A program made the position numbers and the translations under genes. The notes under the pieces were generated by a model. That model saw nothing but the letters and a program-made list of their open reading frames with translations. It was not told where the DNA came from and ran no database searches. 64,000 bases of DNA from Thiobacillus sp. 0-1251 (GTDB lineage: Bacteria > Pseudomonadota > Gammaproteobacteria > Burkholderiales > Thiobacillaceae), in NCBI GenBank assembly GCA_001899305.1, contig MKWL01000015.1, forward strand, positions 1 to 64,000. The letters are read 5' to 3'. Positions 29,534 through 42,715 of the stretch are shown here, in pieces (the stretch's first letter is position 1; the number at the start of each line of letters is the position of its first letter).

Positions 29534-32065
29534 ATGAAGGCCATGTTCTCCACATCGACGCCTCGATTTCTGCACTATCTGATCAAGCGGATTCGTAGCC
29601 GGCCGGATACCGAATGCCAGCAGGCCCTGATCCGCGTCGTGATCGGATTCATCTTTCTGGCCTACTTCTCCAGCGATTATGCCGTTCTGGATGACGCCAT
29701 TCGCGGCCCGGCCCAATTCATCAGCATCCTGTTCACCGGAATCGCCATCCTGATCGTCGCGCTTTCGCTGATCCGACTGAATATTTCTCCGGCACGCCGC
29801 CTCGTCGCGATGGCACTGGATTATGCGACGTGTTCATTCCTGCTGACCTATACCGGGGAGGCCGGCAGCCCCCTGCTGGTGGTGTATCTGTGGGTCACGC
29901 TGGGCAATGGCTTCCGCTACGGCGCCAATTACCTGTATGCCGCCACCGCTATGGCGATCGCGGGGTTTGTACTGGTCCTCGCCCTTTCGCCCTACTGGAG
30001 CCAGCACATGTCCATCGGGGTGGCATTCCTGCTGTCCATGATTGCCGTACCGCTGTATTCGGCGTCGCTGCTGAAGCAGGTCCATTCCGCCATCCAGCGC
30101 GAACGCAAGGCCAACCAGGCCAAATCCAGTTTCCTCGCCAACATGAGCCACGAGCTCCGCACGCCGCTGAACGGCGTCATCGGCGTCGCCGACCTGCTGG
30201 CGGAAACGCGGCTCGACAAGGAACAGAAGGAATTCGCTCAGATCATCCGTGCATCGGCCAATACGCTGCTGGACCTGATCGAAAACGTACTCGACATTTC
30301 ACGCATCGAAGCCGGCCGCATTGCCAAGAACGAAGAGGATTTCGACCTGCATCGCCTGGTGAACGGCACGATCGCGATGATGACCACCCAGGCCCAGAGC
30401 AAGGGTCTGGTGCTGGCGTCGCACATTGCGCCGCAGACACCGTTCCAGTTGCACGGCGATGTACGCCACCTGCGCCACATCCTCATCAACCTGATCGGCA
30501 ACGCCATCAAGTTTACCGAGCACGGACGCGTGGATATCTACGTCCGGCCGATCGGACAGGCCAATCCGCAACGCCTGCGCTTCGAGGTCGTCGATACCGG
30601 CATCGGCATTTCGGAAGCCGCCCTGCCCCGCGTTTTCGACACCTTCACCCAGGCGGACCCGAGCATCACGCGCCGCTTTGGCGGCAGCGGCCTGGGCACC
30701 ACCATCGCCAAGCAGCTGGTGGAAGCGCTCGGCGGCCAGATCGGCGTGCATAGCCGCGAAGGGGAGGGCACGACCTTCTGGTTCGAATTGCCGTTCGTCC
30801 TGCAGGCAAGCCAGGCCGGCTCCGTGCCCGAACAGTTCGACGCGCCGATGCGCGTGGCGATCCTGGCAAGCGGCGAACTCACGACGCGCATCCAGAGCGT
30901 GATCCGCAACTGGGGGGCCGATACGGTGGCGGTCGACAACACCACCCGGCTTGCCGCCGAGTTGTCGGCCTACCTGTCGGGCGGCACGCCGCTGGGGGCA
31001 GTGGTGGTGGAACGCAGCACCTTGCCGGGCGATCCGGTCGCCTTCCTGCACCTTCTGCGCGACGATCCCAGTCTGGCGGCCCTGCCGGTCATCCTGATCG
31101 AATCCGATGCCCGCGTCACCCTGTCGCGCGATACGCAGCTGCTCCGCGAAGGCTACGCCTCGGTGCTGCGTACCCCGGTCAACACGACCTTGCTGTTCAA
31201 CGCCATCCACGCCGTCACCAGCCACGACACGCCGTCCAACGTAGTCTCGCTGGCCAACCACCTGCAGGCGCAGGCGGGGCACACGCCGGGGTTGAACATC
31301 CTGGTGGCAGAGGACAATCCGGTCAACCAGCGGGTGATCCGCGGCCTGCTGGAACATGCCGGACACACGACCTATCTGGCGCATGACGGCGAAGAAGCGC
31401 TGACCATGCTCGAATCCGGCGAGCAGCCATTCGACCTGGCCATCATCGACATGCACATGCCGCAACTGTCGGGACCCGAGGTGGTGCAACGCTGGCGTTT
31501 CATGGAAACCGGCCATTTGCCCATCATCATGCTGACTGCGGATGCGCGGAGCGAAGCGCAGGTGGCTTGCGAAGAAGCTGGTGCAGACACCTTCCTCACC
31601 AAGCCGGTCAACAGCCGCGAGCTGATCGAGGTGATCGCCCGGTTGGCGGGGCAGTCGGCGCAAACAGCGACGAATGCCCCTGCCCGCGCGCAGCCGGCGG
31701 TGGATGAACTGGACGAATCGATTCTCGACAATCTCGCCCAGCTTGGCGGACCGGGTTTCGTGGAAGACCTGCTGACGAGCTTCGAAGAAGACAGCGCACG
31801 CGCCTTGCGCAACATCGAACGCGCGCTGACCGTCCAGGATTATGGCCAGTGGCACGACCAGCTGCACATGCTCAAGGGCGGCGCCCGCGATGTCGGTGCC
31901 AACCAGTTGGCCCAGTTCTGCTCGGAAGCCGAACGCATCAAGCCGTTCGAACTCGCGACGCCCGTGGCCCGCGCCAGGCTCGATTCAGTACGGGACGCCC
32001 TGGCGGCCGCACAGGCCACGCTCGCCGCTTATCAAACCAGCAAATTACGCGCTGAGCACAACTGA
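29534..32065 (+). CDS. rpfC: Hybrid sensor kinase RpfC (DSF receptor)
   Basis: An 843-residue hybrid kinase. Order: about five membrane segments (residues ~35-180), HisKA with the phospho-histidine in [12 protein letters not shown], a HATPase domain with DTGIGI and [11 protein letters not shown], a degenerate receiver in which the phospho-aspartate position reads VVVERS, a second receiver with an intact aspartate ([12 protein letters not shown]), and a C-terminal Hpt domain with [12 protein letters not shown]. This matches RpfC with an extra pseudo-receiver. It should sense DSF and control phosphorylation of RpfG. Its 3' end overlaps that of rpfF by 21 bases. Confidence 0.88.
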
Positions 32066-32947
32066 ATCGCCGGTATGTGCGGTCTCGACCTTGCCGGTCT
32101 GCCGCATCACCAGGCGTTCCATCATGCGCAGATCCTTGCTCTCCAGCCGCAACGCCGCATCCACCCAGATTTCGGCGATCCGCATCAGCTCGTCATGTGC
32201 GATCGGCTGGGACAGTTCGCGTGCCGCCCGCAATGCCAGGGCGCCGTTGCGCTGGCGCGCCTCCTTGCGAATGAAGTCGTAGACCGCCTGTTCGCCGCTG
32301 CCCGGGTCGACCAGCACATCCACGGCGCCCAGTTCGTACATTTCCTCGGCCGTATAAAGCTTGCCGCTGAGAATGACTTTCTCGGCCTTGGTGTAACCGA
32401 TCTTCCTGCCGAGCAGGGTCATGGCGCCCATGCCGGGGAACAGATTGAACAGTATTTCCGGAAAGCCCATTTTCGTCCCGCGCTCCGCGATCAGGATGTT
32501 TCCCGAAAGCGCGCACTCGAAGCCGCCCCCCAGTGCGTCTCCCTGCACCAGGGTGATGGTTTTCAGATTGGGGCGGTTCAAATGCAAGGCATTCAAAAAC
32601 AAGGGGCGGATGCAGGCTTGCGCATATTTGCACAGGTTTTCGCGGTCACGCGCCTCGATCAACTGGCGAAACAGACTGAGGTCACCACCCAGGTTGTAGA
32701 TCCCGGGATGGCCGGAGGCCACCACCACATAATTCACGTCGGCGCACTCCGGATCGTCCACGCGTCGGGCCACGTCACCAAACCAATCAACGATCTCCCG
32801 CAGCAACGTCCCCGTGAAACAGGGGCGCGGCGCCGCGTTCATGTAGCCCCAGGCAACCTGATTGTGCTCGTCGTAGTACGTCGTAAGTTGACTGTAATCG
32901 TTCTGCTGTGGTTGCAGAGTGGTCCGTACAGCTTGCAGGTGCGCCAT
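32045..32947 (-). CDS. rpfF: DSF synthase RpfF (crotonase family)
   Basis: A 300-residue enoyl-CoA hydratase-fold enzyme. The two glutamates that RpfF needs for combined thioesterase and dehydratase action are present in ALGGGFECALSG and GFPEILFNLFPGMGA. These motifs and the C-terminal MRIAEIWVDAALRL set it apart from general crotonases. It makes cis-2-unsaturated fatty acid signals (DSF). The ATG at 32947 has a GGAG site. It is convergent with rpfC, as in Xanthomonas. Confidence 0.92.
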   Translation of the reverse strand: MAHLQAVRTTLQPQQNDYSQLTTYYDEHNQVAWGYMNAAPRPCFTGTLLREIVDWFGDVARRVDDPECADVNYVVVASGHPGIYNLGGDLSLFRQLIEARDRENLCKYAQACIRPLFLNALHLNRPNLKTITLVQGDALGGGFECALSGNILIAERGTKMGFPEILFNLFPGMGAMTLLGRKIGYTKAEKVILSGKLYTAEEMYELGAVDVLVDPGSGEQAVYDFIRKEARQRNGALALRAARELSQPIAHDELMRIAEIWVDAALRLESKDLRMMERLVMRQTGKVETAHTGDSVVLSA

Positions 32948-33122
32948 GATGCTTTCTCCACGAGGACATTGATCGGTCATGCGACGAATTTTCGGCATGT
33001 GTCCAGAGACTAACGCGCGGCTGGCGCCCGCTCAAGCACGAAATTGAACCTCGCGTCACCACCCCATATCTAGTGGGAATCCGCGCCTCGGAACGCTAGA
33101 TCAAGGCTACGGGCGGGCATCC

Positions 33123-34407: not shown

Positions 34408-35795
<1,388 letters not shown>

Positions 35796-35873
35796 CGTGC
35801 CCTCCTTCTGGTTGACAAACGTTGCGGATACGCATGATCTGGGGCAACCCGTCCGGCTTTTCAAGAGGCCAGC

Positions 35874-35902
35874 TTGTCCCTTTGGGCAGCAGCCTCTAAA
35901 GT
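35874..35902 (+). promoter_or_regulatory. Possible promoter of the sigma/anti-sigma/bufferin operon
   Basis: TTGTCC (35874-35879), 17 bases, then TAAAGT (35897-35902), about 38 bases before the sigma-factor ATG. It could be a housekeeping promoter, or the site of autoregulation by the ECF factor; the sequence alone cannot decide. Confidence 0.4.
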
Positions 35903-35939
35903 GCCTACGCCCCCACGATGTGGGAACAAGGATCATTCG

Positions 35940-36506
35940 ATGAGCACACTCGACGCGCAAACCTGGTTGGCCGACCATGGGGACTATCTGTTCCGGGTCG
36001 CACGACGCCAGTTGCACTCCGACGAACAAGCCGAGGACGCCGTGCAGGAAACCCTGCTCGCCGCGATCGTCGCCCAGGCCCGCTATGCGGGCGATGCCAG
36101 CCCGCGCACCTGGCTCACCGGCATCCTCAAACACAAGATCGTCGACCTGATCCGGAAACAGCTGCGCGAAGTCGCGCTTCCCTGCGACGAAGAAGGCGAG
36201 GAAGCCGTCGACCTCCTGTTCAAGCAGGATGGCCACTGGGCCGAACCACTGCGGCCCTGGGGCAATCCGCAGGCCGAGGCCGAACTCAGCCAGTTGCGGC
36301 ACGTGCTGGACGAGTGTGCCGACCGCTTGAAGCCCGCCATGGCCCAGGTGTTCAGCCTGCGCGAGGTCGCCGGCATGGAAACCGAAGAAATTTGTAAGGA
36401 ACTCGGTATCTCGCCGACCAACTGCTGGGTACTGCTGCATCGCGCACGCTTGTTCATGCGGCAATGCCTGGAATTGAATGGCTTTTCGAAGGCAGGTGCA
36501 GCATGA
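35940..36506 (+). CDS. ECF-type RNA polymerase sigma factor
   Basis: A 188-residue sigma-70 family factor with region 2 (DYLFRVARRQLHSDEQAEDAVQ; DEQAEDAVQETLL is diagnostic) and region 4 (VFSLREVAGMETEEICKELGIS, then NCWVLLHRAR). The ATG at 35940 has an AAGGAT site. Its stop overlaps the next gene's start (ATGA), and that gene encodes a zinc-binding anti-sigma factor. The pair leads an operon for an HvfA/bufferin-type peptide and its modifying enzymes, so it probably controls that pathway in response to metal stress. Confidence 0.9.
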   Translation: MSTLDAQTWLADHGDYLFRVARRQLHSDEQAEDAVQETLLAAIVAQARYAGDASPRTWLTGILKHKIVDLIRKQLREVALPCDEEGEEAVDLLFKQDGHWAEPLRPWGNPQAEAELSQLRHVLDECADRLKPAMAQVFSLREVAGMETEEICKELGISPTNCWVLLHRARLFMRQCLELNGFSKAGAA

Positions 36507-36760
36507 AGTGGATACCGACATGCAAGGAAACCACCGTGCTCGCCTCACGTGCGATGGACGCGCGACTGCCGTTTGCTGATCGGGTGGCCATGCAGCTGCA
36601 TTTGCTCATTTGCGAGAACTGCGCCCGCTTCGCCCGGCAGCTGCATGAAATGCGCCGACTGTTCAGCGTGGAAACGGATGCCTACGATGACGCAAAGGGG
36701 CTCACTGACACGGCCCGTCAGCGCATCGCAACCGAATTGCAGGACAAGCTCGATCGCTGA
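36503..36760 (+). CDS. Zinc-finger (zf-HC2) anti-sigma factor
   Basis: An 85-residue protein with the ZAS motif HLLICENC (HxxxCxxC), preceded by a helix with a further cysteine (IPTCKETT). It has no membrane segment, so it is a soluble anti-sigma factor, and the Cys/His set could respond to copper or oxidants. It overlaps the sigma gene by four bases. Confidence 0.87.
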   Translation: MKWIPTCKETTVLASRAMDARLPFADRVAMQLHLLICENCARFARQLHEMRRLFSVETDAYDDAKGLTDTARQRIATELQDKLDR

Positions 36761-36829
36761 GCGTGTTGCAAGAAGCCGGGATTTTCCGGTGTTGTCGTAA
36801 CTTTTTTAATTAATATCAGGAGACAAATC

Positions 36830-37141
36830 GTGTCGAAAAAATCCCTGTTCGTCGCTGCTGCCGGTTCCGCGTTCGTTGCCAGCATGGCGGCCGCCCCCCT
36901 CGCCTCCGCCGCAAGCAACCCCTTCGCCCTGTCCGCGCTCTCGAGCGGTTACCAGGTGGCCGACAACCAGGCCACCAAGCCCGCGGACGGAAAATGCGGC
37001 GCCACCAAGAAAAAAGCCGCAGAAGTCGAGATGCAGGCCACCGACAAGAAAATGCCGGAAGGCAAGTGTGGCGAGGGCAAGTGTGGCGCCCCCAAAAAGG
37101 CCCCCAAGGCTGACGGGATGAACAAAGGCGACATGAAGTAA
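36830..37141 (+). CDS. HvfA/bufferin-type precursor peptide
   Basis: A 103-residue secreted peptide. Residues 1-28 are a signal peptide ending ASA. The mature part is Lys/Ala-rich and has three GKCG motifs (Cys56, Cys80, Cys85), the last two as [10 protein letters not shown]. That motif is the substrate of MNIO enzymes, which in characterised HvfA/bufferin systems turn the cysteine into a copper-binding thio-oxazole or oxazolone-thioamide group. It starts with GTG behind AGGAG, and the MNIO gene follows three bases after the stop. The predicted product is a periplasmic copper-sequestering peptide. Confidence 0.85.
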
Positions 37142-37143
37142 AC

Positions 37144-37995
37144 ATGAAGCCCCTGCGCCCGTCCGGTGCGGGGCTGGGCTTTCGGCGCGAACTCATCCCT
37201 GCGCTGAAAGCCCGCGTCCCTGACGCCATCGATTTTTTTGAGCTTGCCCCGGAGAACTGGATCGACATGGGCGGCGCACGCGGCCGCGACCTGCGCAGTT
37301 TTACCGAGCGCTACCCGTTTGTCTGCCACGGCCTGTCGCTGTCGCTCGGCGGGCCGTCACCGCTTGACGACATGCTGCTGCACAAAACCCGGCAGTTCAT
37401 GGAGTTGCATCAGATCGCACTGTTTACCGAGCACCTGTCGTATTGCTCGGACGACGGCCATCTGTACGACCTGCTGCCGATCCCTTTCACGGAGGAGGCC
37501 GTCCACTACGTCGCGTCACGCATCCGGCGCACACAGGACATCCTGGAACGCCGCATCGCCATCGAGAATGCGTCGTTCTACGCGGCCGCACCGATCGCCG
37601 ACATGGACGAAGCCGGCTTTATTCGCGCCGTGCTGCAGGAAGCCGATTGCGACCTGCATCTCGACGTCAACAACGTCTACGTCAACAGCGTGAACCACCG
37701 CTACGACCCGGTCGAATTCATCCGCGCCATGCCGACCGAACGCATCGTGTACCTGCACATGGCGGGACATCACAACGAAGCACAGGATCTGATCATCGAC
37801 ACCCACGGCGCCGACGTGATCGATCCGGTATGGTCGCTGCTCGACGAAACCTACCGCATCCACGGCGTCGCCCCCACGCTGCTGGAACGCGATTTCAACA
37901 TTCCACCGCTGGCCGACCTGGCGCGCGAGGTCGAGCATATCGCGCGCATTCAGGCCACCCACCGTCCGCATGCCTCCGTCGCCCGTGCGTCCTGA
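37144..37995 (+). CDS. MNIO (DUF692) peptide-modifying enzyme
   Basis: A 283-residue multinuclear non-haem iron oxidative enzyme of the DUF692 (BufB/HvfB) family with a TIM-barrel fold. Visible iron-ligand motifs include [59 protein letters not shown] and LLERDFNIP. It is predicted to oxidise the Cys residues of the preceding precursor peptide. It overlaps the next gene by 26 bases. Confidence 0.93.
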
Positions 37996-38746
37996 ATTCC
38001 AGCGTTACCAATTCGCCTTCACGGCGCATATCCGCGACCCCAAGGCGAACCCGCGTCCGCACGGCGTGGAGGTGCGGCGCATGAAAATCTACAACACGCT
38101 GCTCTACGACAATATCGAGGGATTCCTGCTGGCGTGCTTTCCGGTGTTGCGGCAGGTGCTCGGCACGCGCAGGTGGACACGGCTGGTGCGCGCGTTCTTC
38201 AGTACGCATCGCTGCCGCACGCCCTACTTCCGGCAGATCCCCGACGAGTTCATCCAGTTCCTGCAGAACGAATGGAACACGCCGGAAACCTACCCGCCCT
38301 GGACGCTCGCGCTGGCGCACTACGAGTGGATCGAACTGGTGTTGTCCGTGTCGGACCGCGTCGCCGATCGCAACATCGACGACGTGGGCGACCTGGTCGA
38401 TGGTTTGCCCATCCTGAACCCGGTACTGGCCAATCTGCATTACGACTGGCCGGTCCATCGAATCGGCCCGCGCCGCAAGATACGGCCTGCGGACACCTGT
38501 CTGCTGGTGTTCCGCGATGCGGCCGATCAAGTGCAGTTCAGCGAGATCAACGCCTTCACCGCGCGCCTGCTGACGCTACTGGAATCCGGCACGCTGAGCG
38601 GCCGTGCCGCGCTGGAACGCATCGCCGCCGAAAGCCGCCATCCCGACCCTGCGCTGATCCTGCAGGCTGGCGGCGCGCTGCTGGAGGATATGCGGGCGCG
38701 CGGCGCGATACTCGGTACGGCGGTTTCACCCGCTCACGCCCGCTGA
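37970..38746 (+). CDS. DUF2063 (HvfC/BufC) partner protein
   Basis: A 258-residue protein of the DUF2063 family. The N-terminal domain has the [28 protein letters not shown] pattern (only part is diagnostic), with [15 protein letters not shown] and [13 protein letters not shown] following; the C-terminal domain is more variable. In characterised systems this partner binds the leader region of the precursor and delivers it to the MNIO enzyme. The 26-base overlap with the MNIO gene suggests equal amounts. No DoxX (BufD) gene follows. Confidence 0.9.
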
Positions 38747-38773: not shown

Positions 38774-39228
38774 TCAGTGAGGGTGCTGCATCTGCATGGC
38801 GCCGCCCATGGCACGCGCTTCGGCCTTCACCTCGACGGTCTGCTGTTTGCCGCCTGATTCGATCACCAGCGTGAGCGGGATGACATCACCTACCGCGATC
38901 GGTTTTTTCAGATTCATCAGCATGATGTGGAAACCGCCCGGTTCCAGCGAGACGGTCTTGCCCTTCGGCAGATCGACCGCCTTCACTTCACGCATCCGCA
39001 TCACGTCGCCATCCATTTTCATTTCGTGCACTTCCACCCGCGGCACGACGCTGCTGGAGACGCCGACCAGGCGCGCATCGGCATCCGACTGGATCTGCAT
39101 GTAGGCGCCGCCGACGGGCTGGCCCGGCATGGTGGCGCGTACCCATGCATCGGTCACGCTGATATTGGCGGCCCAGGCCGTCTGCGCTGCCAGGCTGAAG
39201 CTGCTGCAATCATCCATCCATGTTTCAT
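38774..39228 (-). CDS. PCu(A)C copper chaperone with apparent frameshift in signal peptide
   Basis: The mature domain (about 125 residues) is a PCu(A)C periplasmic copper(I) chaperone: the ligands appear as HEMKM, later MRM, and FHIMLMN (HxM), and a His/Met-rich tail ends the protein. These proteins feed copper to cytochrome oxidase. A well-placed GAGGAA site precedes an ATG at 39228 whose reading (MKHGWMIAA) is a normal signal start, but it shifts frame near 39200. The downstream frame would then read FSLAAQTAWA, the rest of a signal. The only in-frame ATG for the domain, at 39217, lacks a charged n-region. One base seems missing. Confidence 0.75.
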
Positions 39229-39245: not shown

Positions 39246-40193
39246 TCAGAAATGCATTGTCAAACCCAGGGTCGCCGCCCAGTCCGCCGTCAGTTGCGTA
39301 CCGTTCACATTCTGATACAGCGGCAGCTGGACCAGCCCGTAGACCTGGGCATTATGGCCGACCGGCATCGCCAGGCCAGGGGAAAAATACGCATACTTTC
39401 CACCGCTGTCGGCCGGTTCGGCATTGCTGCCGGAATCGTGTCCCCGCCAGAGCAGATTGATTTGCGCGAGCGCGTGCACTGCCCCGAGCGGATAGGTCAC
39501 CCCCGCATCGAGACTGACATGGTCACCCGGCTGGTAATCCTGCCGCTCGCTGACCGCATGCTGCCAGTTCATCTGCGTGTGCCAGCCCGTTTGCGCCAGA
39601 TGGCCGGAGACGAACCCGCCCGCGATCACGTCGGTGGAACCCGATCCCGGCTGCAATGATCGTTCCGCCAGTTCGCCGTCGGCATTGCGTACCTTGGTCG
39701 AACCCGTCGGCAGCTTGACGCCGCCGATCAGGCCGTAGGCCTGGCCGTGCGCGGACTGTGCATCATCCAGCCGCAGATGCGCCAGCACACGCACGTCACC
39801 GAGCCGGGTGAAATTCCAGCTTTCCGGTTCGGGGCCGCCAACGCCGTTGAAGACGTGGGAATGGTCACGCGACACCAGCGGGGCCTGCAACGTCACGCCC
39901 AGGGAAGAACTGAAGGCATGGCTCACGCTGGCGACCATATTCCGGTTGAGCGTCTTGATCTCGTCGTGTTCACCCGTCACGCCTGCGGCCGTGGTCTTGT
40001 CCGTACCGGAACGCAGTTGATTCTGATGGATCATTTCCATGCGCAGGTCCAGGCGTGTGGCGTTTTCCTGCCAGGGTGTCTGGGTATCCCAGTCGGTGTT
40101 GATCGTGCAGAACGCCGAACCGCAACTGGCGGCTGCGGCCATCGGGAGAAGCAACAGCGGTAGCGCAAGGCCGGTCTGCCAGGTGGGGTTCAT
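39246..40193 (-). CDS. Outer-membrane beta-barrel (transporter-like) protein
   Basis: A 315-residue protein with a signal peptide (LALPLLLLPMAAAA) and a C-terminal aromatic residue (TMHF), as expected for an outer-membrane barrel. A cysteine pair sits at the mature N terminus (SCGSAFC). Alternating strand patterns such as YGLIGGVKLPTGSTKVRN and AQVYGLVQLPLYQNVNG fit the transporter-type family often seen beside copper genes. Substrate is unknown. It is 17 bases upstream of the PCu(A)C start, so the two probably form an operon. Confidence 0.7.
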   Translation of the reverse strand: MNPTWQTGLALPLLLLPMAAAASCGSAFCTINTDWDTQTPWQENATRLDLRMEMIHQNQLRSGTDKTTAAGVTGEHDEIKTLNRNMVASVSHAFSSSLGVTLQAPLVSRDHSHVFNGVGGPEPESWNFTRLGDVRVLAHLRLDDAQSAHGQAYGLIGGVKLPTGSTKVRNADGELAERSLQPGSGSTDVIAGGFVSGHLAQTGWHTQMNWQHAVSERQDYQPGDHVSLDAGVTYPLGAVHALAQINLLWRGHDSGSNAEPADSGGKYAYFSPGLAMPVGHNAQVYGLVQLPLYQNVNGTQLTADWAATLGLTMHF

Positions 40194-40486
40194 TCGTCAC
40201 GTCACGCAGGGGTTTCAGTTCGTGCACGATAACAAATTGTCCACCCCCGGCAGTGCGACATATCGTCGCATGTCGTGCGCATGCATCCATCCACCTTTCC
40301 TCGACATGCCGCAAACCGCCCGGGCCAGACGCCGTGCGGCATGCGCGAAAGAATGTACGACGGGTTGGCGCCCGGAACGGCATGCAATCGGGGCGTCAAC
40401 CGCGTGGGTTGCGGCGATTTGTCACATTCTCGGCGGCGCGTGGCTTTTTTAGACTCGGGCAAAATTTCAACAACGCCGAGAAGAAC
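40194..40486. promoter_or_regulatory. Divergent control region of the copper genes
   Basis: About 293 bases between the barrel/PCu(A)C operon and the OprC-type receptor. An inverted repeat CGACAT-N8-ATGTCG (40256-40275) is a possible operator. The frame of the receptor stays open through this region, but the residues look random, and a signal peptide begins only at 40487. Confidence 0.4.
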
Positions 40487-42715
40487 ATGCTGTTTCCCCG
40501 AAAGCCCCTCCCCTTCGCCCTCTCGCTTGCCCTGTCGGCAATCTGGAACAATGCCGCCGCCCAGAGCGACGCCTCGCCCGTTCTCCCGGAGACGCCGCTC
40601 ATGACCGTCGTCGTCGTGGGCGCGCCGGATTCCACCGATGCCGAGCTCAACGGCGTGACCCTGGATGCGGCAAGCCTGCAGCCCCTGCATGCCGCCACCA
40701 GCGACACGGCCAGCCTGCTCCGGGACGTTCCGGGCCTCAATCTCCAGAGTGCCGGCGGGGTGTCGAGCCTGCCGTCGATTCGGGGCCTGGGCGATGACCG
40801 CCTGCGCATCAAGGTCGATGGCATGGACCTGATCGCGTCCTGTCCCAACCACATGAACCCTGCCCTGTCCTACATCGATCCCACCCGCGTCGATGCCATC
40901 AAGGTATTCGCCGGCATCACGCCTGTCAGCGTCGGTGGCGACAGCATCGGCGGCACTCTCATCGTGGAATCGGCCAAACCGCAATTCGCCCGCGCCGGCG
41001 AAGGCGTCCTCACCCGGGGATCGGTCGGCACCTTCTACCGCAGCAACGGCAATGCCATGGGCGCCAACGCCGCCGTCACGGTGGCCGGCGAAAACCTCAG
41101 CGTGACCTATACCGGCTCGACCGCGCAGTCGGACAACTACAAGGCGGGTGACAATTTCAAGACGAGCACGCTCACGGGACGACCCGGACATACGCTGCCG
41201 CTCGACGAAGTCGGCTCGTCCGCCTACCGGTCGATCAACCAGGCTCTCGCGATCGCGCTGCGCAATGAGAATCACCTGTTCGATCTGAAGCTGGGCCGCC
41301 AGCACATTCCGTACGAGAATTTCCCGAACCAGCGCATGGACATGACCGACAACACGAGCGATCAGGTCAATCTGGGCTACACCGGGCAATATCAGTGGGG
41401 CGTTCTGAAGGCGCGCGTCTATCACGAGAAGACCCGGCACGAAATGAACTTCGGCGACGACAAGCAGTTCGTGTACGGCACCGCCCCGGGCATGCCGATG
41501 AACTCCGACGGGAAGACCACCGGCGTATCGGTCAACGCGGATATCCGGCTTTCTGAACGCGACACCGTGCGGGTCGGCAGCGAATACCAGGCCTATCGAC
41601 TGGACGACTGGTGGCCGCCGTCGGGGACGGGCGGCATGTCTCCGGGCACCTTCTGGAACATCAACGACGGCCAGCGCGACCGCTACGCCCTGTTCGGCGA
41701 ATGGGAGGCGCGCCTCACGCCGCAGTGGACCAGCCTGCTGGGGCTACGCCACGAAACGGTCAGGATGGATGCGGGCAATGCGGCGGGCTACTGCACCAGC
41801 GGCATGTGCATGGGCAACCAGCTTGCCGATAGCGCCAGCTTCAACAGCCAGGATCACAGCAGGACCGACCACAACTGGGACCTGACCGCGCTGGCGCGCT
41901 ACACCCCCGATGCCACGCAGACCTACGAGGCAGGCCTCGCGCAAAAGACCCGCTCGCCCAATCTGTACGAACGCTACACCTGGTCCACCTGGCCCATGGC
42001 AGCGATCATGAACAACTTCGTCGGCGACGGAAACGGCTATGTCGGCAACCTCGACCTCAAGCCGGAGGTGGCGCACACGCTGAGCCTTGCCGCCGACTGG
42101 CACGATGCCCGGCAGAAAGTCTGGGGCGTGCGCATCGCGCCCTACTACACGCATGTCCGGGACTACATCGACGCACGCTGCAGCAGCGCCAGCTGCCCCG
42201 ACGGACAATTCAACGTGCTCAAGTACGTCAACCAGTCGGCCCGGCTGGTTGGCGTCGACCTCTCCGGTCATCTCCTCGCCGCCAGCACGCCCGCGTATGG
42301 CGATTTCACCGTGAGCGGCATCGTGAATGTCACCCGTGGCGAAAACCGGGATACGGGTGACAACCTGTACAACATCATGCCGCTGAACGCGAAGCTGGCC
42401 CTGACGCAAAAACGGGGACGCCTGACCAACACGGTCGAAGCGCAGTTCGTCGCGGCCAAACACACCGTCTCGGATGTCCGGAACGAAGTGGAAACCAGCG
42501 GCTACAGCCTATTCAATCTGCGCAGCAGCTACGCATGGAAGCAAGTCCGCCTGGACGTGGGGATCGACAACCTGTTCGACAGGGGCTATGCGCTGCCCTT
42601 GGGCGGCGCCTATGTCGGCCAGGGCATGACGATGTCCATCAATGGCATCCCCTGGGGCATCGCCGTGCCCGGCCCGGGTCGCTCGGTCTATGCCGGCGTG
42701 AACTACCAGTTCTAG
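40487..42715 (+). CDS. OprC/NosA-type TonB-dependent copper receptor
   Basis: A 742-residue outer-membrane receptor: signal peptide (ALSLALSAIWNNAAAQ), plug domain (~40-165), 22-strand barrel and terminal phenylalanine. The OprC/NosA hallmark is present: Cys119 and Met123 in the plug (ASCPNHMNP, CxxxM) and His318 and Met320 in the barrel (RHEMNF, HxM), which match the CxxxM-HxM copper site of Pseudomonas OprC. Extra Met-rich loops (GTAPGMPMNS) fit copper capture. The predicted role is copper uptake, and it lies beside the PCu(A)C chaperone and the bufferin operon. Confidence 0.9.
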   Translation: MLFPRKPLPFALSLALSAIWNNAAAQSDASPVLPETPLMTVVVVGAPDSTDAELNGVTLDAASLQPLHAATSDTASLLRDVPGLNLQSAGGVSSLPSIRGLGDDRLRIKVDGMDLIASCPNHMNPALSYIDPTRVDAIKVFAGITPVSVGGDSIGGTLIVESAKPQFARAGEGVLTRGSVGTFYRSNGNAMGANAAVTVAGENLSVTYTGSTAQSDNYKAGDNFKTSTLTGRPGHTLPLDEVGSSAYRSINQALAIALRNENHLFDLKLGRQHIPYENFPNQRMDMTDNTSDQVNLGYTGQYQWGVLKARVYHEKTRHEMNFGDDKQFVYGTAPGMPMNSDGKTTGVSVNADIRLSERDTVRVGSEYQAYRLDDWWPPSGTGGMSPGTFWNINDGQRDRYALFGEWEARLTPQWTSLLGLRHETVRMDAGNAAGYCTSGMCMGNQLADSASFNSQDHSRTDHNWDLTALARYTPDATQTYEAGLAQKTRSPNLYERYTWSTWPMAAIMNNFVGDGNGYVGNLDLKPEVAHTLSLAADWHDARQKVWGVRIAPYYTHVRDYIDARCSSASCPDGQFNVLKYVNQSARLVGVDLSGHLLAASTPAYGDFTVSGIVNVTRGENRDTGDNLYNIMPLNAKLALTQKRGRLTNTVEAQFVAAKHTVSDVRNEVETSGYSLFNLRSSYAWKQVRLDVGIDNLFDRGYALPLGGAYVGQGMTMSINGIPWGIAVPGPGRSVYAGVNYQF

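Follow-up and report, generated by a model that had tools for sequence, protein, structure and literature searches.

What does an operon make when it carries its own ECF sigma factor and zinc-type anti-sigma ahead of a peptide-modification cassette, and what signal switches it on? This arrangement occupies 35940 to 38746 of the 64,000-nucleotide stretch of DNA analysed here (the window). The chemistry of the EGKCG peptides, to which the cassette points, has been solved in a few bacteria.

Gene content and peptide class

Five open reading frames on the plus strand make up the operon. The first (35940..36506) encodes an ECF sigma factor of the TIGR02943 family (187 bits against a cut-off of 162.2, E 3e-55) with Sigma70_r2 and r4_2 domains, and the second (36503..36760) a zinc-type (ZAS) anti-sigma of 85 residues, judged soluble by eye, that matches zf-HC2 (22.8 bits vs 22.2) and NF052368 (60.2 vs 50, E 1e-16). 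They are followed by an HvfA-type precursor of 103 residues with a GTG start (36830..37141), assigned from orthologues and NF050137 (32.7 bits vs 19.5, E 4e-8), an MNIO of the HvfB family (37144..37995; NF003818, 430.8 bits vs 360, E 2e-129; PF05114, E 1e-103) and a DUF2063 partner of the HvfC family (37970..38746; NF050145, 282.4 bits vs 142, E 3e-84; PF09836, 90.5 vs 27.2). In this profile search all five products passed curated NCBIfam cut-offs. The sigma and anti-sigma genes overlap in an ATGA, 69 bases separate the anti-sigma from the precursor gene and 2 bases the precursor from the MNIO gene, and the MNIO and DUF2063 genes overlap by 26 bases. An earlier note on this DNA had proposed the same five genes; its families and coordinates are borne out by the reading frames, the profile matches and the order in related genomes, and its spacings agree with ours except for the precursor-MNIO gap, which it put at 3 bases. 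With these profile matches and the same order in related genomes, the five-gene assembly is not a product of chance. As judged from sequence, the operon is well supported as a member of the captophorin/oxazolin clusters, with an ECF/ZAS switch like that of Neisseria and Haemophilus.

The precursor has cysteines at positions 56, 80 and 85 only, as had been read before, with 80 and 85 forming a paired motif and 56 a lone one. A putative N-terminal Sec signal peptide was recognised by eye, and an NPF..GY segment sits behind it. The strict HvfA equivalog model NF050188 was not reached (22.8 bits vs a cut-off of 95), and on these scores the precursor belongs to the HvfA family without being a strict HvfA equivalog. 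It had no match at E 0.1 to any Pfam family, DUF2282 among them, and identity with a Buf1 bufferin (DUF2282) was rejected on that basis. Since the KCG model was passed and no Pfam match was seen, we place the peptide with the EGKCG/oxazolin kind rather than with the DUF2282 bufferins. Of the label "HvfA/bufferin" used earlier, the first half holds and the second does not.

The cysteine chemistry of the EGKCG/oxazolin class is now assigned as a copper-binding 5-thiooxazole in the accessible text of PMC13097082. According to the available excerpt on the Fontimonas peptide, a version shortened to a single EGKCG repeat was unmodified, and a two-repeat version lost 8 Da. On the strength of this one- versus two-repeat result modification is expected at Cys80 and Cys85, and the lone Cys56 may stay as it is. 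We infer that the HvfC-like DUF2063 protein would hand over the precursor with its signal peptide to the HvfB-like MNIO, that this enzyme would oxidise Cys80 and Cys85, perhaps also Cys56, to 5-thiooxazoles with a loss of about 4 Da per cysteine, and that the modified peptide would be exported by Sec and bind copper in the envelope. The previous proposal of an MNIO-modified HvfA-type peptide under a sigma/anti-sigma pair thus stands by family membership, with copper binding read across from relatives.

By sequence, the nearest solved chain to the MNIO is 3bww (E 3.7e-78) and that to the DUF2063 protein is 3dee (E 9.2e-19), and the BufB model scored below its cut-off for the MNIO (261 vs 310 bits). 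The HLDVNN and DTHG segments of the MNIO are kept in the 3bww alignment. They look like the presumed counterparts of HvfB site-3 residues N175, D242 and H244, which are required for activity according to the accessible part of PMC13419390.

Distribution, precursor variation and decay in the genus

Conservation was followed in the best 80 sigma loci among the matches listed in a scan of genomes, divided into 20 close named loci (L070-L088 and L112; sigma identity at least 81%) and 60 distant ones (sigma identity at most 62%; two also titled Thiobacillus), and in a genus set of the 30 best loci, the window counted in. Among the matches listed, the nearest named sigma relatives are mostly Thiobacillus and Hydrogenophilales MAGs, consistent with the sulfur chemolithotroph host suggested earlier. 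A search of other genomes for the five-gene order had also been proposed; we observed this order in related genomes, with MNIO and DUF2063 genes downstream on the same strand at 44 of the best 80 sigma loci. A further 30 are without them, and six contigs are too short to tell, one of which shows an MNIO. All 44 cassette loci have a ZAS-type reading frame; they include Thiobacillus, Gallionellales, Methylobacillus, Methylovorus, Methylotenera and Methylophilus. The anti-sigma itself has matches in 74 of 117 family genomes at E 1e-4, many of them weak and likely paralogues, and an MNIO was found in 7 of 13 chosen genus genomes and in none of the other 6, several of the 13 having been picked for a missing or odd anti-sigma or cassette. 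One close locus, L070 (JAIBEL010000046.1), carries the operon at 97% sigma identity and is filed as a Rhizobium sp. MAG; it is probably mislabelled.

The precursor varies widely at this one position. The genus set yields 27 intact precursors from 26 of its 30 loci; the gene is absent at L013, L015 and L018 and frameshifted at L007. Intact precursors hold 2-8 [KR]CG motifs in 95-157 residues (length by the chosen start rule), with a paired motif in 23 of the 27, at least one lone motif in 22 and EF-hand-like segments in eight. Among 29 cassette loci inspected, 28 conserve the NPF..GY segment, the exception being L101. Such a core series at one locus, from few to many motifs, lone or paired, some with EF hands and some lacking them, offers a ready-made panel of substrates. 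The earlier note had singled out the short peptide, its lone first motif and the lack of a DoxX gene. All three are present, but they are ordinary within the genus, where lone motifs are common and a DoxX match was seen at none of the 20 close named loci. Although the operon lacks DoxX, its genome also carries a second cluster, which has an HvfX (DoxX-type) gene.

Two further variants were observed. At L030 a plain precursor and an EF-hand precursor lie in tandem behind a single sigma pair. At L116, L118, L120 and L121, and likewise at L136, L138, L143 and L148, the precursor at the same operon position carries EGSC/EGAC-type repeats and few GKCG; these eight loci, mostly Methylophilaceae by title, possibly present a different MNIO target.

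A decay series is also visible in the genus. L071 and L073 retain the sigma and anti-sigma genes without the cassette, with an MNIO elsewhere in the genome and the upstream box described below intact (as L013 and L015); L087 has the cassette without the precursor; and L075/L007 combines a broken MNIO with a frameshifted precursor.

The second cluster lies on another contig of the window's genome (L033, 6273-10568, minus strand). It comprises sigma2, ZAS2, a six-KCG precursor and HvfX, and then a decayed window-type copy, in which the last ~73 residues of a window-type sigma and a window-type anti-sigma cut short by an early stop are followed by a short precursor with one pair, and then by HvfB and HvfC. 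With a six-KCG precursor and HvfX available there, the window operon could itself be decaying, its short core a product of repeat loss and the second locus the active one, much as four of the 30 genus loci are without an intact precursor, one of them with its MNIO broken as well. However, the broken sigma and anti-sigma at the second locus belong to the window-type copy, all five reading frames in the window are intact, and the precursor, MNIO and DUF2063 protein are 93-97% identical to those of the three nearest relatives. We regard a window operon without functional product as most improbable.

Control of the operon

Upstream of the sigma gene, a candidate operon promoter at 35874..35903 (plus strand) reads TTG-N13-CTGCCTCTAAAGTG with one mismatch. 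At up to three mismatches this box was found in 27 of the 30 genus loci (window included), starting 57-66 bases before the sigma gene, against 0 of 600 sequences shuffled base by base. When whole genomes were searched at up to two mismatches, eight of ten, including that of the window, had one site, at the operon; G079 had two sites and G062 had none. With this strict pattern the ten genomes gave 10 sites in all, vs 4 for the reversed control, and a looser pattern gave 16 in four genomes vs 67 for the reversed control; of those 16, four are the operon sites without mismatch and two others recur in relatives. The box can also be read as TTGTCC-N17-TAAAGT, a weak match to what we take to be the sigma-70 consensus, and may serve as an ECF promoter or as a weak promoter for sigma-70. 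Upstream of the 60 distant sigma loci, the 15 commonest 6-mers included no TCTAAA-type word, and no box was seen by eye in nine distant loci. A promoter motif shared beyond the genus was set aside as evidence of autoregulation, the box being strong in the genus with no TCTAAA-type word among the commonest distant 6-mers. Between the box and the gene, a presumed leader could form a small hairpin (CCCAC-GAT-GTGGG, 35912..35924, plus strand) that folds in the window and its three nearest relatives; it shows one A-U to G-C change among these four and is not uniform across the 30 genus loci.

The upstream region is shared with a divergent Hsp20 gene (35376..35795, minus strand; PF00011, E 2e-19), whose predicted sigma-32-like promoter, CTTGAAA-N14-CCCC (35841..35865, minus strand), follows what is presumably the sigma-32 consensus. 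The word TTTCAAG, conserved within 200 bases upstream of sigma, was rejected as a sigma element; it represents the hsp20 promoter in reverse orientation. Among the best 80 loci listed, it occurs at 29 of 32 loci with hsp20 vs 1 of 48 without, three of these 48 (L121, L125, L139) having less than 400 bases upstream and L125 being the one with TTTCAAG. This count was used in place of the whole promoter pattern, whose first version fitted 2 loci and whose looser version fitted 23 of 30.

Divergent hsp20 genes accompany sigma at 32 of the best 80 loci, 16 with the cassette, 15 without it in cis and one on a contig too short to tell. These loci would suit an alternative in which the sigma pair forms an older, Hsp20-linked stress module whose targets lie elsewhere, the cassette being placed behind it by coincidence and expressed by sigma-70. 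The sigma-70 reading of the box, and L071 and L073, which keep both the sigma pair and the box while the MNIO of each genome lies elsewhere, are consistent with such a module. Against it, the genes are co-directional and coupled through the ATGA, the 44 cassette loci span several named groups, and the operon is co-transcribed in Neisseria and sigma-dependent in Neisseria and Haemophilus. We therefore consider the stress module unlikely. The reading that we favour, and hold to be likely, is that the product of the operon is a periplasmic, copper-binding peptide of the captophorin/oxazolin type and that the ZAS-held sigma transcribes its own operon, although 30 of the best 80 sigma loci are without the cassette in cis.

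How the sigma would be released is suggested by the anti-sigma. Its residues C7, H33, C37 and C40 have the spacing printed for MseR and RsrA and are invariant in 40 aligned anti-sigmas, 39 of which were selected by that motif; a reading frame with this ZAS motif, HxxxCxxC and an upstream Cys, directly follows sigma at 76 of the best 80 loci among the matches listed. Foldseek gave no match to the predicted anti-sigma model below E 0.001, and a sequence comparison with solved chains gave none at E 0.1. We infer a switch in which the soluble zinc anti-sigma would hold the sigma until oxidation of the Cys7, Cys37 and Cys40 thiols, or another thiol-reactive stress including copper, frees it to transcribe its own operon.

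Copper is nevertheless suggested by the neighbouring genes. The operon is followed by a convergent PCuAC copper chaperone (38774..39217, minus strand; PF04314, E 4.7e-39), a 315-residue protein (39246-40193), a TonB-dependent receptor (40253..42715, plus strand) and a RegB-like kinase. The 315-residue protein has a CGSAFC segment near its start and is 81-98% identical in four relatives; it had no Pfam match at E 1 and its structure model was unusable (pLDDT 28.7). The nearest solved relative of the receptor is OprC (E 2e-21, query from 40364). Its CPNHM aligns with CPNRM of OprC, a CxxxM motif that we take to be copper-binding, and there was no OprC alignment in the part that would hold the HxM partner. 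The receptor reached neither the cut-off of the copper model TIGR01778 (140.6 bits vs 472) nor that of the heme model TIGR01785 (173.2 vs 317). In nine genus regions, one of them (L047) without the cassette, PCuAC, argB and the RegB-like kinase are present in all nine and the receptor in eight, whereas PCuAC was found at 4 of the 60 distant loci, at two of them more than 6 kb off. A copper role read from these neighbours is a hint, drawn mostly from genus-level synteny. Elsewhere in the window (29534-32998), a hybrid histidine kinase (HisKA, HATPase, REC, Hpt) is convergent with an RpfF-related crotonase (236.5 bits against the RpfF model, below its cut-off of 550), perhaps an RpfC/RpfF-like signalling pair.

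Could the switch then sense copper, with Cu(I) displacing zinc from the ZAS site and inducing a copper-buffering peptide? The adjoining PCuAC and OprC-like genes fit this, as do copper or gold excess and oxidative stress, which the accessible text of PMC13097082 reports as inducers of related pathways. However, argB and the kinase are as constant in the genus as PCuAC, so that the linkage may be plain synteny; PCuAC is rare at distant sigma loci; and the receptor scores better with the heme than with the copper model. The counterpart in Haemophilus, RpoE2/HrsE, responds to HOCl and drives the doxX-hvf genes (PMC7907618, as far as its available text goes), and the Microbulbifer mmr proteins stayed undetected even with copper added. 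Meningococcal sigma-E gave no response to peroxide, diamide or singlet oxygen. We view copper sensing as doubtful, although possible, and somewhat favour thiol oxidation over copper as the inducing signal. The metal-sensing switch envisaged earlier is unsupported, given the RsrA/MseR-type Cys/His spacing and the HOCl response in Haemophilus. A more elaborate scheme, in which the ZAS thiols read Cu(I) directly, the sigma serves mainly this operon and the whole forms a dedicated copper-peptide rheostat, with Cys56 left as a free thiol beside two thiooxazoles, strikes us as decidedly unlikely. With a sigma/ZAS pair inside the operon, copper genes beside it and a non-pathogenic host group, the locus is convenient for separating copper from oxidant signalling.

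Comparison with known systems

A literature search, its widest query judged on the best matches only, returned no paper on the operon in Thiobacillus. The description "uncharacterised" may hold for the genus; in meningococci, however, a known autoregulated operon is built from the same parts. In N. meningitidis the rpoE operon NMB2140-2145 is co-transcribed and autoregulated, with NMB2145 as its ZAS anti-sigma; the available text of PMC7907618 identifies NMB2141-2143 as precursor, MNIO and DUF2063, which the meningococcal paper calls hypothetical. That operon (gonococcal ngo/gonophorin) resembles the window in joining sigma, ZAS and DoxX-cluster proteins, and differs in including DoxX and in having its sigma and anti-sigma genes numbered last, whereas they come first in the window. 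The Haemophilus hvfABC-hvfX (oxazolin) system shares the HvfB and HvfC families, the HvfA-family KCG domain, a small, probably soluble zinc-type anti-sigma and ECF control, but there the genes of the sigma pair lie outside the operon, the operon includes HvfX, and HvfA has three motifs where the window precursor has one pair and one lone motif. With RpoE2/HrsE and the doxX-hvf genes of H. influenzae, the parts list was already known from the accessible part of PMC7907618.

Fontiphorin (fon) and Microbulbifer mmr share the EGKCG precursor, MNIO and DUF2063 with the window. Unlike the window, fon consists of the three core genes only and the description of mmr gives mmrA-C and no sigma pair; their cysteines for modification number seven in fon and five to eight in mmr, against three cysteines in the window. 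Buf1 bufferin clusters have in common the MNIO, DUF2063, a signal peptide (putative in the window precursor) and, in some, sigma control, but use a DUF2282 precursor and an NrsF anti-sigma, neither of which is among the family matches of the window. According to the accessible text of PMC12452194, a precursor, MNIO, DUF2063 and DoxX make up the majority of EGKCG clusters, and sigma genes are reported with Buf1; the sigma/ZAS coupling is not spelled out in that portion of the survey, yet it is old in Neisseria. The parts list of the window operon is not new. What is new is the range of precursors within one genus, from two to eight motifs and with EF hands, and the hybrid second locus.
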